Assembly: GCA_016176605.1 (NCBI GenBank)
Contig: JACOWW010000002.1
Coordinates: 64,846-128,845 of the forward strand
DNA from: Candidatus Saccharimonadota bacterium
Lineage (GTDB): Bacteria > Patescibacteriota > Saccharimonadia > Saccharimonadales > UBA10212
DNA: 64,000 bases
Reading direction: 5' to 3'
Shown: one piece after another, positions 4,456 to 51,599 of the stretch
Numbering within the stretch: the first letter of the stretch is position 1
Layout: the number at the start of each line of letters is the position of its first letter
The notes under the pieces: model-generated
What the model was told of the DNA's origin: nothing
The model's input: only the letters and a program-made list of their open reading frames with translations
Databases searched by the model: none
Made by a program: the position numbers and the translations under genes

Positions 4456-4506
4456 ATGAGATACCAAAGTACGTTTTCTGTTCTGCCCATCCCGCGACCT
4501 GCCTAG
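4456..4506 (+). CDS. Proline-rich leader peptide of the proS attenuator
   Basis: A 16-codon ORF ending in LPIPRPA and a TAG. Three of its last seven sense codons are proline (CCC, CCG, CCT). It starts within about 2 bases of the predicted transcription start. It lies upstream of a terminator and antiterminator pair and of prolyl-tRNA synthetase two genes downstream, which is the expected layout for ribosome-stalling control by charged tRNA-Pro. Too short for the ORF track; its translation is inferred, not shown. Confidence 0.65.
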   Translation: MRYQSTFSVLPIPRPA

Positions 4507-4508
4507 CA

Positions 4509-4563
4509 GTCGGGGTATCTTGTATTTCATTAACGCAGGCGGCCCCGACGAAGGGGCATTTTT
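4509..4563 (+). promoter_or_regulatory. Terminator and antiterminator of the proS leader
   Basis: The terminator is GCCCC-GACGAA-GGGGC followed by ATTTTT (4542-4563). A competing 7-bp pairing joins GTCGGGG (4509-4515) to CCCCGAC (4543-4549), helped by CCTGC near 4498 with GCAGG near 4536. A ribosome finishing the leader peptide would cover 4509-4515 and allow termination. A ribosome stalled on the Pro codons would leave it free and favour read-through. Confidence 0.65.
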
Positions 4564-4603
4564 AATGCTCGCCGTCTGCGAACATCATTGAAAGGATTAA
4601 AAA

Positions 4604-8377: not shown

Positions 8378-8431
8378 ATGGTTCGCATAGCTATCACGAT
8401 TAAGACAACAACAATCGCGCATTGGTCGTGA
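8378..8431 (+). CDS. Thr/Ile-rich leader peptide
   Basis: A 17-residue ORF reading MVRIAITIKTTTIAHWS with three tandem ACA threonine codons at 8405-8413 after one lysine codon. Its stop overlaps the upstream antiterminator arm (8424-8432). Composition resembles classical amino-acid leader peptides of the thr type. It precedes a terminator and a small unknown gene plus lysA. Translation is inferred. Confidence 0.55.
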   Translation: MVRIAITIKTTTIAHWS

Positions 8432-8479
8432 CAGGCTTTTAATTAGAAAATAACCGCCCGGTCACGACCGGGCGGTTTT
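8424..8479 (+). terminator. Attenuator: strong terminator with perfect antiterminator arm
   Basis: The terminator is CCGCCCGGTC-AC-GACCGGGCGG followed by TTTTAAT (8454-8479). GGTCGTGAC (8424-8432) is an exact 9-base complement of GTCACGACC (8461-8469) inside the terminator stem, so the two structures exclude each other. The upstream arm overlaps the end of the leader peptide. Confidence 0.75.
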
Positions 8480-8498: not shown

Positions 8499-8711
8499 AT
8501 GTCCAACGAAGCAGCTGTAGAAAAGTCAGAGCAACCAGATCCAGAAATACCAGTAAGTGGCGTACCTTCTTTTTCTTGGGAGCATCCTAGATCGCTAGAT
8601 AAACCTGCGCCCGAGAAAAAAATGACGACTTTGGAAGTCTTGGGTCTGCGTACGCTCGCAGACTTTATAAAGGTCGCTAGACAAGGTGACGATGAAGCCA
8701 GCTATCGATGA
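8499..8711 (+). CDS. Hypothetical 70-residue soluble protein
   Basis: Preceded by a reasonable ribosome-binding site (GGGAGA, 8 bases before the ATG) and by the attenuator, so it is probably the first regulated gene. The N-terminal 45 residues are acidic and proline-rich (PDPEIPVSGVPSFSWEHP) and probably unstructured. The C-terminal part, LEVLGLRTLADFIKVARQGDD, could form a helix or short helical hairpin. No family recognised. The 82-base gap to lysA suggests it may be co-transcribed with it. Confidence 0.5.
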   Translation: MSNEAAVEKSEQPDPEIPVSGVPSFSWEHPRSLDKPAPEKKMTTLEVLGLRTLADFIKVARQGDDEASYR

Positions 8712-35149: not shown

Positions 35150-36268
35150 ATGGAAGAATTAGTCTTTACGCCGACTGATTTTGTAGCGGTCTTCAACCAG
35201 ACTTTGGAGCTGGCTTATCCGGTCGTGACAATCGAAGGCGAGCTGGCCAACTTCCACGTTAGCCGAGGCCGCTGGGTTTACTTTGGTATTAAAGACGAGC
35301 TAGCCAGCATTAAATTTTTTGGCAGTGTCTACCAATTACCGGGACCGCTTCAAGACGGTCTCAAACTGCGCGTTATTGGAACGCCGCGCCTGCATCCGCA
35401 ATTTGGTTTTAGCATTACATTCCAGTCCATTCAGCCGGTTGGCGAAGGCGCCATAAAAAAAGCCGCCGATTTGCTGCGCGTCAAGCTGGAAGCCGAAGGC
35501 TTATTCGCGCCGCAGCGCAAGCGGCCGCTGCCAGAGATTCCCAGAAGTATTGGCTTAATAACTGCCGCCAACTCCGCAGCATGTGCCGACTTCATAAAAA
35601 TTCTTAACGAGCGCTGGGGCGGGGTAGAAATAATTTTGGCCGACGTTTTGGTGCAAGGTATGGAAGCGCCAGAAGCAATCGTGGGCGCGCTGGATCATTT
35701 TGAACAAATAAGCCCGCTGGTTGACGTTTTGGTAATAACGCGCGGCGGCGGCAGCGCCGAAGATTTGGTGGCCTTTAATGACGAACGCGTGGTGCGCGCC
35801 GTGGCCGGCAGCCGCACACCGACACTGGTGGCAATTGGCCATGAGGTCGATATCAGCCTGGCCGAGCTGGCGGCTGATAGGCGCGCCAGCACACCGACTA
35901 ACGCCGCCCAAATCGTTGTACCCGACCGCCAGCACGTTATTGCCCAGCTCGATAGTGTAGGATCGGGCCTGCAAAAATTTTTGATGGACACCATTGGCAC
36001 GATACAGACTGATTTAGCAGGCGAGCGAAAATACTTAACAAGTCAAGTATTTTCGTCATTTGACCAAGCCAAACATAATACGGAAGCCAGCCGTAAGCTA
36101 ATCAAAGTCTTTGACCCGCGCGCCGCACTGAAACGCGGTTACGCCATTATTAGCAAGGGCAGGGAACACGTGCGCAGCGTCCGGCAAGTCGCAAAAGGCG
36201 ACAACCTGGGCGTTGAGATGAGTGATGGCAAGATAAACGTCACCGCCACCACCATCCACGAGGTCTAA
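35150..36268 (+). CDS. xseA: Exodeoxyribonuclease VII large subunit
   Basis: Single-strand exonuclease subunit. The start at ATG 35150 has AAAGGAGG upstream, better than the ORF-track start. An OB-fold N-domain (VEGELANFHVSRGRWVYFGIKD-like, residues about 22-50) precedes the catalytic domain with RPLPEIPRSIGLITAANSAA, VLVITRGGGSAEDLVAFND and AIGHEVDISLAELAADRRASTPTNAA. Length 372 is slightly short. The small subunit gene follows. The stop codon lies inside an inverted-repeat arm (36260-36321). Confidence 0.95.
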   Translation: MEELVFTPTDFVAVFNQTLELAYPVVTIEGELANFHVSRGRWVYFGIKDELASIKFFGSVYQLPGPLQDGLKLRVIGTPRLHPQFGFSITFQSIQPVGEGAIKKAADLLRVKLEAEGLFAPQRKRPLPEIPRSIGLITAANSAACADFIKILNERWGGVEIILADVLVQGMEAPEAIVGALDHFEQISPLVDVLVITRGGGSAEDLVAFNDERVVRAVAGSRTPTLVAIGHEVDISLAELAADRRASTPTNAAQIVVPDRQHVIAQLDSVGSGLQKFLMDTIGTIQTDLAGERKYLTSQVFSSFDQAKHNTEASRKLIKVFDPRAALKRGYAIISKGREHVRSVRQVAKGDNLGVEMSDGKINVTATTIHEV

Positions 36269-47501: not shown

Positions 47502-48102
47502 ATATACGCAGAGCTGTCTTTTGATTGAAGATGGCGGGAGTAAGATTCTGATTGATCCGAGCGGCGAAGATTCGGCAGTAGATTTTGGTAAGCTGGACGG
47601 CGTTTTATATACTCATGAACACGGCGATCATTTTGATCCGGCGCTTTGCAAAAAGTTCATGGAGCAGGGAATTGCCGTTTATGTCAACGCCAGCACAGCC
47701 AAGCAGATCGAGGGCAAGCCAAACGTAGTTAAAGATGGCCAAGAATTTAGCGCCGGCAGTTTCAAAATCAAAGTAATCGAACTGCCGCATTGCCCGATGC
47801 CCAATGGCAGCGCCGGTCCGCAAAACACAGGATATCTGATTAACCAAAAATTATTCCACCCTGGCGATGGAAAAGAACTGAAAGGCTTACAAGTAAATAA
47901 CCTAGCAGTTCCAATAACCGGGCCGGATATTTCAATGCGTGACGCCTTTGATTTTTTGAAGCAAGTCGACGCTAAAATTGGCATTCCTATTCACTACGAC
48001 AAACTTGGCGCCAATGCAGGCGTCTACGCAGAATTTGCCGAACGCCTGCAGATGCCATTTGAAATTCACGCCCTTCAAAACAACGAAAGTCTAAAAATCT
48101 AA
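47488..48102 (+). CDS. Metallo-beta-lactamase superfamily hydrolase
   Basis: 204 residues from ATG 47488, overlapping the S51 gene by 14 bases. The motif HEHGDHFD supplies the HxHxDH metal ligands; later His ligands are in ELPHCPMP and PIHYDK. The short UlaG/YtnP-like fold is compatible with a lactonase or phosphodiesterase-like enzyme. Substrate unknown. It is the last gene of the accessory run before the pyr leader. Confidence 0.85.
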   Translation: MKITRYTQSCLLIEDGGSKILIDPSGEDSAVDFGKLDGVLYTHEHGDHFDPALCKKFMEQGIAVYVNASTAKQIEGKPNVVKDGQEFSAGSFKIKVIELPHCPMPNGSAGPQNTGYLINQKLFHPGDGKELKGLQVNNLAVPITGPDISMRDAFDFLKQVDAKIGIPIHYDKLGANAGVYAEFAERLQMPFEIHALQNNESLKI

Positions 48103-48121: not shown

Positions 48122-48150
48122 TTGACAAATCTTTAAAACTTTCTGACAAT
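48122..48150 (+). promoter_or_regulatory. Promoter of the pyrDBC operon
   Basis: TTGACA (48122-48127), 17-base spacer, GACAAT (48145-48150). The predicted start near 48157 is one base before the ATG of the leader ORF. Confidence 0.65.
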
Positions 48151-48157
48151 AGTGCCA

Positions 48158-48274
48158 ATGTCTGAATCAGAAACCAGACAAAAATGGGAAGAGTTTAAAG
48201 GGCGGCAGCTCGAAGCAATAGCTCCGGTAACGGAGCTATTTTTTTATTCGCTGATCGGAATGGAGGACAAATGA
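48158..48274 (+). CDS. Leader peptide of the pyr operon
   Basis: A 38-residue ORF beginning MSESETRQKWEEFKGRQ. It reads through the intrinsic terminator, with ELFFYS encoded by the stem end and T-run, and ends in GMEDK with its TGA overlapping the pyrD ATG. This is the same arrangement as the pyrL leader of E. coli pyrBI, where translation through the terminator permits read-through. It also carries the pyrD ribosome-binding site GGAGG within its last codons. Confidence 0.65.
   Translation: MSESETRQKWEEFKGRQLEAIAPVTELFFYSLIGMEDK
48217..48245 (+). terminator. Intrinsic terminator inside the pyr leader ORF
   Basis: AATAGCTCCG-GTAA-CGGAGCTATT is a perfect 10-bp stem with a tetraloop, followed by a run of seven T (overlapping the stem end). 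It lies 25 bases upstream of pyrD and within the leader ORF. Confidence 0.85.
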
Positions 48275-49296
48275 GCGAAGCACTACAGCTGCCGTCGTTA
48301 GATGAGTGCGTATTCTCTGAATTTGAAATTAATTTTCCGTTTGGTCCGTCGGCTGGAACGATTAACGGTACCAATGAAGAACTGTTATTACATAGAGCAT
48401 TGGATTCACTTCGTTCGCCAGCTGATTTGACTAAAACCGGCTCCTTTACATGGAATCACCAAGAAGGTAACGAGGCTAAATACGGCCGCTGCTACTATCA
48501 CAACCCGATTACCGGTGAAACTGGCAACTGTATGGGAATGCCAAATATTGGTTACCGACGAGGGACAGAACTTCACCCACGTTTGCAAAATGTGGCAGAC
48601 CAGCTGGGCAAGCTGCTGATTCCCAGCATTTCGGTTGGTAAAGGAGCTATTGCTGTCGAGGCTTTGCCTAAAATGGCCTACGCTTTTGCCAAAGCCGGCG
48701 CAAAAATAATTGAGATTAACTACAACTGCCCGAATATTATCAGAGAAGATGGCTCACGTGAACCGGTTATGGGTTATGAGCCCGATATACTGTTTGGGGT
48801 ACACGACAAAGTTTTCGAAGAGGTTGGTTCCGAAGCTATTATTGTCATAAATCTGCCACCCTATATTGACCAATATCGGCATTTAATTCCGGCTGTTGTT
48901 AAGGGTCTTCACCAGGCACGGGGCAAAATAGCCGTAAACGTCTCAAATACAATCGGCGACCGACAAGTCTTTACCGAAAGTGGGGAACCAGCACTTGACG
49001 TACCTGGTAATCTAGGTGGTCTCAGCGGTCCAGCAACTGTAGACATGGCCAGAAACCAACTGGACATTTTTCGGCACGCCTTACCAAGGCGCATTGGTAT
49101 TATTAGCTGTAATGGCGTATTTAACGGACAAGAGGTATTTCACCGCGTCCATAATCAAGGGGCTGACCTAACGGCTGGAGCGACCGTATTTTTTGAGAAC
49201 GAAACAAGAGGCTTGAGTTACGGCGAGACAGCTTTCCGGATAGCTAAAGAATACGCCCATGTTCAAAACTCGGTGTTAGAGGAGGTACCTACATAA
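48271..49296 (+). CDS. pyrD: Dihydroorotate dehydrogenase-like protein (class 1 fold)
   Basis: FMN TIM-barrel enzyme that oxidises dihydroorotate. EINYNCPNI, NVSNTIGDR, GGLSGPA and GIISCNGVFNGQEV match the conserved FMN- and substrate-binding segments. At 341 residues it is slightly longer than class 1A enzymes. The catalytic base is not certain from sequence alone. First structural gene of pyrDBC behind a leader-ORF attenuator. Confidence 0.85.
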   Translation: MSEALQLPSLDECVFSEFEINFPFGPSAGTINGTNEELLLHRALDSLRSPADLTKTGSFTWNHQEGNEAKYGRCYYHNPITGETGNCMGMPNIGYRRGTELHPRLQNVADQLGKLLIPSISVGKGAIAVEALPKMAYAFAKAGAKIIEINYNCPNIIREDGSREPVMGYEPDILFGVHDKVFEEVGSEAIIVINLPPYIDQYRHLIPAVVKGLHQARGKIAVNVSNTIGDRQVFTESGEPALDVPGNLGGLSGPATVDMARNQLDIFRHALPRRIGIISCNGVFNGQEVFHRVHNQGADLTAGATVFFENETRGLSYGETAFRIAKEYAHVQNSVLEEVPT

Positions 49297-49364: not shown

Positions 49365-50462
49365 ATGGCAGTAACACAAGAAACAATGATAGTGGATGTA
49401 GATGGTGAAACAATTGATATATCAGGTGTAATTCAGCCTATAGATGGTGATGCAAGCGGTAAAAATTTACTTTGCATGCAGCAGCTTAACGCTGAAGGTA
49501 TACAACCATACATTGACGAAGCCTACGCTGCCGAGTTAATCATTAAAAATCGCTCGCGAAACGGTATAAACTTATTGCCACATGTTGTTTTAAAAGCCGT
49601 CATGCGGCAGCCATCAACTAGAACTGGCGGAAGTATCACGACAGCCATGAGGAAGCTGGGCGGTACGGCCGAACTTATCAGTGGCATGCACAGCTCTTCG
49701 GAAGCTAAAGGGGAAACGTTAGCTGACTCGTGGGTAGCTTTCGCAACACAGGCCGATATTATAGGTACACGTACAGCAGAAGATTGGGGCCCGGCATTGG
49801 CCGCTCATGCCATTAATGAGGCGGTGGAGTATGGCCAACTTTGGCAACGCGTGCCGGTTATTAATTTAGGTGATGGCCGCAATGAGCATCCCACCCAAGC
49901 TCTTGGAGATTTATTTACTATTCACAAACGCTTTAAAAGATTTGAAGGATTAAGACTTGCCGTGGTTGGTGACCATGAGCGGTATCGTGCTCACCATTCT
50001 TTGATGCTTGGCGCCGCAGCAGTGGGCATGGAAATCATAGTAGTTGAATCGCCTGCCGCGCCCATACCTTCATCGTTAGTGGAATTACTTGGCGCTAATC
50101 TTGTTGCTCGCCATGGGGATTTGGACATAGCTATGGCTGACACTGATGTCTTGTACCTGGGTCGTAACCCTGATGAGTACACGAAAAAAGATGACGAAGA
50201 TGAAGAAATAGTCCGGAGAGAAAAGGCTCGGAGTGAGCAGTTGGCCGCAGACTATGAAGGCTGGATAGTTGATTATGACAGGCTCCAGCGGATGAAGCCT
50301 GGCTCCATTGTCATGCATCCACGGCCGAGGCGTGATGAGCTGAACCCCGATGCTGATAGCGACCCTAGAATGAAAGATGTAGAACAAATGGCCAATATGA
50401 TTCCTATGCGTATGGCTATTATCGCCCGGCATCTTGGCAAATCAATCGTAGAACACGTCTAA
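49365..50462 (+). CDS. pyrB: Aspartate carbamoyltransferase
   Basis: Forms carbamoyl-aspartate from carbamoyl phosphate and aspartate. RQPSTRTGGSITTAMRKLGG contains the STRT phosphate-binding motif, and EHPTQALGDLFTI the HPTQ motif. The usual HPGP loop is altered to HPRPRRDELN, and the protein is longer (365) than the typical 310, with an N-terminal extension and an acidic stretch (KKDDEDEE). No pyrI regulatory subunit is adjacent. AAAGGA precedes the ATG. Confidence 0.9.
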   Translation: MAVTQETMIVDVDGETIDISGVIQPIDGDASGKNLLCMQQLNAEGIQPYIDEAYAAELIIKNRSRNGINLLPHVVLKAVMRQPSTRTGGSITTAMRKLGGTAELISGMHSSSEAKGETLADSWVAFATQADIIGTRTAEDWGPALAAHAINEAVEYGQLWQRVPVINLGDGRNEHPTQALGDLFTIHKRFKRFEGLRLAVVGDHERYRAHHSLMLGAAAVGMEIIVVESPAAPIPSSLVELLGANLVARHGDLDIAMADTDVLYLGRNPDEYTKKDDEDEEIVRREKARSEQLAADYEGWIVDYDRLQRMKPGSIVMHPRPRRDELNPDADSDPRMKDVEQMANMIPMRMAIIARHLGKSIVEHV

Positions 50463-50477
50463 CACCTCCCATCACCT

Positions 50478-51599
50478 ATGCCGAAGTTGCCTGAAACCAT
50501 AACCATCCCCAGCGCGGTGGACATACACGTCCATTTGCGTGAGCCGAGTACTAATAAAGCTGAAACTATTGAGAGCGGTTCAAAGGCAGCTTTACTGGGA
50601 GGTTTTGCTCTAATTTGCGATATGTCTAATAATCCTGGCCGACCTACATGGACGCTCAGAAGAACTATGGATAAACACAATCGTATTTGGCGGACATCAT
50701 ATATTCCGGTAGCGACTTATGCCGGTTCGCAACCAGAATCAAATAACGAACGGGAACTGCCTAAAATGGCGCCTTTAAGTATAGGTCTTAAGTCTTACTT
50801 GGGAGAAACCACCGGCAACAGCAGAGAATATGCAGCTGCTGACTTTAAAGATATTTGGCAGCTTTGGGATTTGCTAGCCCCAGAAAAACCGATTATGATC
50901 CACCGCGGTAGCGCTGACCTAGATGAAATAATAAGCTTTACGGCTGGCGAACTGGGGCATCGCACCCATATTTGCCATACCAATCATCCAGATGAAGTCG
51001 AGATTGTACACCGAGCGAAGAGGGAAGGTCTACCGGTTACAATCGGCGTGTGTCCGCACCACATTTTTAAGACTTCGCATGATGTTCTGACGGAGGGCGA
51101 ATTCGCCAAAATGCAGCCGCCATTAGCCCACCAGACTGACACCGAAAAATTAATGCACCTGTTAGCAGAGGGGTACATTGATATAGTCGAATCCGACCAC
51201 GCACCGCACACTAAAGCCAAAAAATGGGGAGCAGAGCATACTAGTGGTTCGTGTTACGGTGTGCCGGGGATAGAATTTGTTATACCGCTTCTACTCCGTG
51301 CCGAGAAAAAAGGTCGAATTTCCCGAGAACGGATTGTCAACGCCACGTCCACTATGCCGGCATATATTGTTGGACTTAGTCTTTCACCCTATACAAAGGT
51401 TACTTGGGCAATGGAGGAATTTAGGATTGAGGACGAACAGGAGCAGGTGATATCTGGCTCAGGCTGGACGCCATACTTGGGTATGCTGGCTGTTGGAAAA
51501 GTTCAAAGAGCAACAGTGAAGGACAAAGAACTTATCTGCGATGGCCTAATTGTTGGCGAGAAGCCCCAAATCGTGACTCGCCGCGGTACCATAATCTAG
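50478..51599 (+). CDS. pyrC: Dihydroorotase
   Basis: Cyclises carbamoyl-aspartate to dihydroorotate. The amidohydrolase motifs are intact: DIHVHLREP (HxH), GLKSYLGE with the Lys to be carbamoylated, HRGSADLDE and THICHTN for the metal His residues, and IVESDHAPHT for the catalytic Asp. 373 residues, 15 bases after pyrB. Its 3' end overlaps the convergent unknown gene by 4 bases. Confidence 0.93.
   Translation: MPKLPETITIPSAVDIHVHLREPSTNKAETIESGSKAALLGGFALICDMSNNPGRPTWTLRRTMDKHNRIWRTSYIPVATYAGSQPESNNERELPKMAPLSIGLKSYLGETTGNSREYAAADFKDIWQLWDLLAPEKPIMIHRGSADLDEIISFTAGELGHRTHICHTNHPDEVEIVHRAKREGLPVTIGVCPHHIFKTSHDVLTEGEFAKMQPPLAHQTDTEKLMHLLAEGYIDIVESDHAPHTKAKKWGAEHTSGSCYGVPGIEFVIPLLLRAEKKGRISRERIVNATSTMPAYIVGLSLSPYTKVTWAMEEFRIEDEQEQVISGSGWTPYLGMLAVGKVQRATVKDKELICDGLIVGEKPQIVTRRGTII

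Follow-up and report, generated by a model that had tools for sequence, protein, structure and literature searches.

On balance, and with modest confidence, we favor the view that a transcription attenuator, operated by a ribosome translating the leader, lies ahead of the pyrDBC genes in a Candidatus Saccharimonadota genome. The window analyzed here, a stretch of 64,000 nucleotides, lies within a 728-kb assembly (G000) of the order Saccharimonadales, which also includes UBA5170, a named Saccharibacterium. The organism is itself an ultra-small Saccharibacterium, and Saccharibacteria depend on hosts and have few known regulators. The elements on which this view is based are as follows.

48122..48150, + strand: sigma70-type promoter, TTGACA-17-GACAAT, 10/12 consensus match
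48157..48158, + strand: predicted transcription start (A) of a leaderless mRNA, 7-8 nt past the -10 box, judged from sequence
48158..48274, + strand: leader ORF of 38 codons, ATG to TGA, spanning the terminator (MSESETRQKWEEFKGRQLEAIAPVTELFFYSLIGMEDK)
48201..48212, + strand: weak match, on the 5' side of the hairpin, to the elemental RNA polymerase pause consensus (GGCGGCAGCTCG; RNA 3' end at 48211)
48217..48245, + strand: putative intrinsic terminator with a perfect stem of 10 bp, a loop of 4 nt, and seven U's
48262..48266, + strand: pyrD Shine-Dalgarno (SD) sequence GGAGG, downstream of the terminator and mostly unpaired in the fold
48271..49296, + strand: pyrD, dihydroorotate dehydrogenase (divergent; Pfam PF01180, E 2e-17)
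49365..50462, + strand: pyrB, aspartate carbamoyltransferase (divergent; TIGR00670, E 6e-49, below its cut-off)
50478..51599, + strand: pyrC, dihydroorotase (divergent; TIGR00857, E 5e-54, below its cut-off)

A leader ORF runs through a putative terminator ahead of pyrD

The two promoter boxes (TTGACA at 48122-48127 and GACAAT at 48145-48150, 17 nt apart) gave the top score in a 6-kb region, and the predicted start is either the A of the leader ATG itself or the base immediately upstream. A preliminary description of this DNA had claimed a 38-codon ORF that begins at the predicted transcription start, reads through a perfect 10-bp terminator with a T-run, and overlaps the pyrD ATG, and each of these points was borne out: the ATG at 48158 lies 7 nt past the -10 box; the hairpin (48217-48240; -15.4 kcal/mol, with 10 uninterrupted pairs closing a GUAA loop) and its seven U's (48239-48245) lie inside the ORF, with the hairpin starting 59 nt past the leader AUG; and the TGA of the ORF overlaps the pyrD ATG as ATGA. 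The 134-nt leader folds more stably than its shuffled counterparts (z -2.5), and stepwise folding of the growing leader yielded no strong antiterminator. Pairing of the U-run with the pyrD SD, seen in a partial fold, was discarded as a means of sequestration, its probability being just 0.1-0.2 in the full leader. From this arrangement we infer that the hairpin terminates transcription, that the ORF is translated, and that coupling of the two acts as the switch.

One alternative is that the leader ORF mainly feeds ribosomes to pyrD, the hairpin being either the terminator of the upstream hydrolase gene or of little effect. The ATGA overlap would fit this reading, as would the upstream gene, which is on the same strand and ends at 48102; however, pyrD has its own, mostly unpaired SD, and the strong promoter stands between the upstream gene and the hairpin, no second promoter having been found from the hairpin to pyrD, such that we consider plain coupling distinctly unlikely.

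A hairpin of this strength in the leader is beyond chance expectation

Perfect-stem terminators of comparable strength number only 17 in the 728-kb genome (both strands), from which we calculate that about 0.001 would be expected in a given 113-nt leader. In a scan of the genome, the pyrD hairpin alone, among attenuator-like hairpins ahead of genes, had both a clean promoter and a leader ORF. The ORF by itself is only modestly beyond chance and is weaker evidence than the rarity of the terminator: of the dinucleotide shuffles of the leader, 7% contained an ATG 5-8 nt after the -10 box and 2% contained such an ATG whose ORF also crossed the hairpin, and about 28% of the shuffles that already had such an ATG showed an open frame through the hairpin. 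In codon usage, the leader ORF resembles the beginning of a typical gene, ranking at the 54th percentile among genes and at the 88th among off-frame open stretches.

Leaderless starts and pyrimidine genes in the host genome

Of 615 first ATGs, 43 follow a hexamer with at most one mismatch from TATAAT at a distance of 6 nt, 24 at 7 nt, and 26 at 8 nt, compared to ~4 at other (background) distances, and no peak occurs before internal ATGs. Given this pile-up, an ATG at +1 appears to be a normal gene start here. These counts cover the whole genome (G000, L075-L115), and leaderless transcripts appear to be very common in the lineage.

PyrD, PyrB, and PyrC are all divergent members of their families, with scores under the NCBI curated cut-offs. 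Searching the assembly (89% complete) for PyrR returned nothing at E<=10. A carbamoyl-phosphate synthase large chain likewise had no match in the 89% complete G000 assembly, despite the presence of pyrDBC.

Terminators recur before pyrB in the order

The preliminary description had proposed searching related genomes for an ORF-spanned terminator upstream of pyrD. PyrD searches (100 relatives, all 16 genomes of the family, and GTDB contigs) gave a best match of 44% and no orthologous leader; in the closest, G003 and G015, no leader ending in a terminator was seen directly ahead of pyrD. Viral contigs yielded nothing. PyrB relatives of 65-72% identity occur in four genomes from two other families, and their leaders differ in sequence from that of the window. 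The same PyrB subfamily (72% identity) is also present, without the leader, on a contig of a high-GC Acidimicrobiaceae MAG (L069), suggesting transfer between phyla.

Sequences upstream of about 60 pyrB-like genes from the order were read as well; the ensuing comparisons rest on few, partly related leaders from sampled genomes. Nine other Saccharimonadales pyrB leaders comprise a promoter, a leader of 40-60 nt, and a terminator shortly before the gene, and eight of the nine have an SD-like AGGAG at the 5' end, about 8 nt past the -10 box, a sequence that points to ribosome binding in most of the related leaders. Upstream of pyrB at L032, L033, L035, L036, L067, L068, L125, and L141, the AGGAG and an A-rich leader are followed by a terminator 14-25 nt before the gene start. 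In the 65-72% PyrB relatives, a promoter and an AGGAG-like sequence are followed by an A-rich leader that carries a terminator a short distance upstream of the pyrB SD; two of the pyrB genes of these relatives, viewed in their wider context, stand outside a pyr operon. The same layout precedes unrelated PyrB types (G247, G089, G153, G265, and G018, the last without a 5' AGGAG). A C occupies position 7 past the -10 box in six of the eight AGGAG-type leaders.

An ORF with a canonical start reaches or crosses the hairpin in six of the nine pyrB leaders. In G153, the leader AGGAG-CUUU-AUG encodes MIGRGLKPQFN and ends 7 nt before the hairpin, whereas a UUG ORF terminates inside the hairpin in G265 and G466 and at the end of the U-run in G247 and G089. 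The remaining three leaders (G226, G474, and G149) have no ATG, GTG, or TTG ORF; AUU- or AUC-initiated ORFs in these three were left uncounted, such starts being unsupported and the G226-G474 frame being broken. When the window was pooled with the nine, a 5'-proximal ORF extended to the hairpin in 7 of 10 leaders versus 3.1 expected by shuffles (P 0.0015), an excess that is suggestive only, given the partial dependence among the leaders and the post hoc choice of criteria. G082, in which the ORF ends in the hairpin loop and no clear promoter is apparent, was excluded from the counts. An alignment of eight pyrB leaders revealed changes on both sides in four hairpin pairs.

A covariance model built from pyrB leaders (R1) did not match the window and, across the order, recovered six of its own training leaders, three weak and unrelated terminators, and no new member. 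The window leader lacks the combination that defines R1, i.e., a 5'-terminal AGGAG with a terminator just before the SD of the gene; it has only the layout in common with these leaders.

These leaders bear on two further explanations. The first holds that nothing is regulated and that a chance ORF overlies a constitutive weak terminator. An ORF with a leaderless ATG does arise by chance in about 2% of shuffles, and the leader has no orthologue, but such terminators are rare in the genome and recur just before pyrB in relatives, leaving this explanation very improbable. The second holds that the attenuator is independent of translation, the hairpin being governed by polymerase kinetics or by binding of a protein or small molecule and the ORF being incidental. 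It draws on the close pair G226 and G474, in which a 1-nt indel disrupts the frame and no usual start codon is present, yet both the hairpin and the 5' AGGAG are retained, and also on the sizeable chance probability of the window ORF. Against it, the window leader has no alternative fold and no known element: an Rfam search identified no family or known RNA element. Among Rfam models, no match of the PyrR-binding type appeared at the gathering score or below. PyrR itself was not found in the assembly, and the SD-like 5' sequence of most related leaders points to ribosomes. We regard a translation-independent attenuator as possible, though not likely.

Ribosome occlusion of the hairpin as the proposed mechanism

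With neither an antiterminator nor PyrR found, the mechanism with the best support is that a ribosome occludes the hairpin, as happens at pyrBI of E. coli. In this scheme, RNA polymerase would start at 48157/48158, such that the message opens with the AUG of the 38-codon leader. If the first ribosome were close behind the polymerase at 48217-48245, it would cover the 5' arm of the hairpin, preventing termination and allowing pyrDBC to be made, and the same ribosome would continue to the ATGA overlap, from which it could move onto pyrD. If the ribosome lagged, the hairpin would fold and transcription would end before pyrD. The simplest candidate for the signal is the relative pace of polymerase and ribosome; a shortage of any NTP would slow the polymerase and thereby favor read-through.

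Work in E. coli bears on this proposal from two sides. Ribosomes can repress a terminator when a translated ORF overlaps it, and the pyrBI terminator itself lies inside its 135-bp leader gene (PMC4824070). However, when the terminator falls within the first 100 bp of the ORF, translation represses it by only ~10% unless the polymerase pauses (PMC4824070), which counts against occlusion here, as the hairpin starts 59 nt past the AUG and the pause-like site (GGCGGCAGCTCG), a single site identified by consensus match only, is weak.

The preliminary description likened the leader to the pyrBI attenuator while conceding that a UTP-pausing sensor was not obvious. The likeness in layout stands: as with pyrL of E. 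coli, a pyrimidine operon is preceded by a short ORF that passes through a putative intrinsic terminator immediately ahead of the first structural gene, pyrBI works without an antiterminator and no competing one appears in the pyrD leader folds, and terminators recur before pyrB in relatives. The differences are that the pyrD leader ORF is predicted to be leaderless, with its AUG at the 5' end, that it overlaps the first gene, and that this first gene is pyrD. The likeness does not extend to a U-rich, UTP-sensitive pause region, and the doubt about the sensor was well placed: U makes up 15% of the stretch from AUG to hairpin (13% of its last 30 nt), compared to 49% in the pyrL template (PMC10135430). 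True pyrBI-type sensing, in which low UTP stalls the polymerase in the leader so that the ribosome catches up and prevents termination, would agree with the layout, the kind of operon, and the ORF through the terminator. Nevertheless, the lack of a U-rich stretch makes pyrBI-style pausing unlikely, and the other pyrB leaders are A-rich (36-52% A) with 17-31% U. Our verdict on the pyrD leader is that it probably represents pyrBI-type attenuation in a new form, i.e., a translation-coupled attenuator working like that of pyrBI, for which we claim neither UTP control nor membership of the pyrBI class.

Other known systems are less similar. In attenuators of the trp/his/thr type, the position of the ribosome on a leader peptide also decides termination, but these carry regulatory codons in runs, can form an antiterminator, and end their leader ORF upstream of the terminator. 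All three are absent from the pyrD leader, the ORF of which has no regulatory-codon runs and continues through the hairpin. The pyr genes of Bacillus are controlled by PyrR-dependent attenuation at a terminator in the leader. The pyrD leader shares the terminator, whereas PyrR is missing from the 89% complete assembly and the folds contain no antiterminator.

Enteric pyrC and pyrD rely on SD sequestration and are not known to use a terminator. Start-site selection operates at these genes in E. coli and Salmonella (Wilson 1992, Sorensen 1993; as cited in PMC5730371). A resemblance may lie in the position of the 5' end relative to the translation signal, since two C's (48155-48156) directly precede the A's at 48157-48158, although variation in start choice is hypothetical here. 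Under such a scheme, plentiful CTP would favor initiation at C48155/C48156, placing the AUG away from the 5' terminus, with poor translation and termination as the result, whereas scarce CTP would shift the start to A48157/A48158, allowing translation of the leaderless ORF and read-through into pyrDBC. We see this as a long shot; if true, it would join start-site switching of the enteric type to an attenuator of the pyrBI type.

If ribosome occlusion proves correct, pyrimidine synthesis in Saccharibacteria is controlled through direct coupling of ribosome and polymerase, the ribosome entering at a leaderless ORF, and pyrBI-like logic operates without a U-rich sensor. In E. coli, a terminator this early in an ORF is repressed only with polymerase pausing; the 59-nt leaderless leader would also test whether leaderless initiation speeds ribosome catch-up. 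A limited literature search found no published account of attenuation by leader peptides in the candidate phyla radiation.

Leaders of proS and lysA and other elements

The preliminary description extended the leaderless design to proS and lysA in the same window. We read both leaders by eye from the sequence; the leaderless start was retained in this reading, but their leader peptides stop about 20-35 nt before the terminators. In amino-acid attenuators, more than 20 bp separate the leader stop from the terminator, a spacing through which the ribosome avoids direct repression of the terminator (PMC4824070). By this measure, the pyrD leader would work like pyrBI and those of proS and lysA like the amino-acid kind.

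Ahead of csaA-proS (window 4456-4566), a leader peptide with Pro codons is followed by alternative hairpins. The peptide, MRYQSTFSVLPIPRPA (4456-4506), starts at an ATG 8 nt after the -10-like TTTAAT, and CGGGG (4511-4515) can pair with the 5' arm of a GCCCC/GGGGC-ATTTTT hairpin (4542-4563). Its counterpart in G006 (L168) is MNHICQYTISVLPTPPLT. The proS leader thus looks like a proline-responsive, ribosome-mediated attenuator.

The lysA leader peptide, MVRIAITIKTTTIAHWS (8378-8431), precedes a 70-aa ORF (8499-8711) and lysA, and an antiterminator arm, GGTCGTGAC (8424-8432), faces GTCACGACC (8461-8469) within the terminator (8452-8479). Counterparts are MCLSQISFESKKKVTKPWS in G013 and, with a GTG start, VCALFYQPNLKKKAIKL in G002. 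Lysine-rich leaders precede lysA in relatives (L177, ...ESKKKVTKPWS; L176, ...NLKKKAIKL), and the window's own leader has Thr and Ile codons and one Lys. It looks like a lysine attenuator, the codons of which have changed in this genome. Together, the recurrent pyrB leader and the putative attenuators of proS and lysA suggest that members of the order use attenuation as a general means of regulation.

Two minor observations concern other parts of the genome. A dispersed element around TTGACTTGTTAAGTATTTT has a core, TGTTAAGTATT, present in 12 copies in G000 (e.g., C7:4913, C7:323241, and C3:61803), and its long form occurs as two inexact copies in the window versus 0.01 expected (window 36027-36046, - strand). 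In addition, a terminator-like hairpin (G000 C7:233759-233787, - strand) lies 45 nt upstream of a gene resembling that of ribosomal protein L10 and is a possible attenuator.
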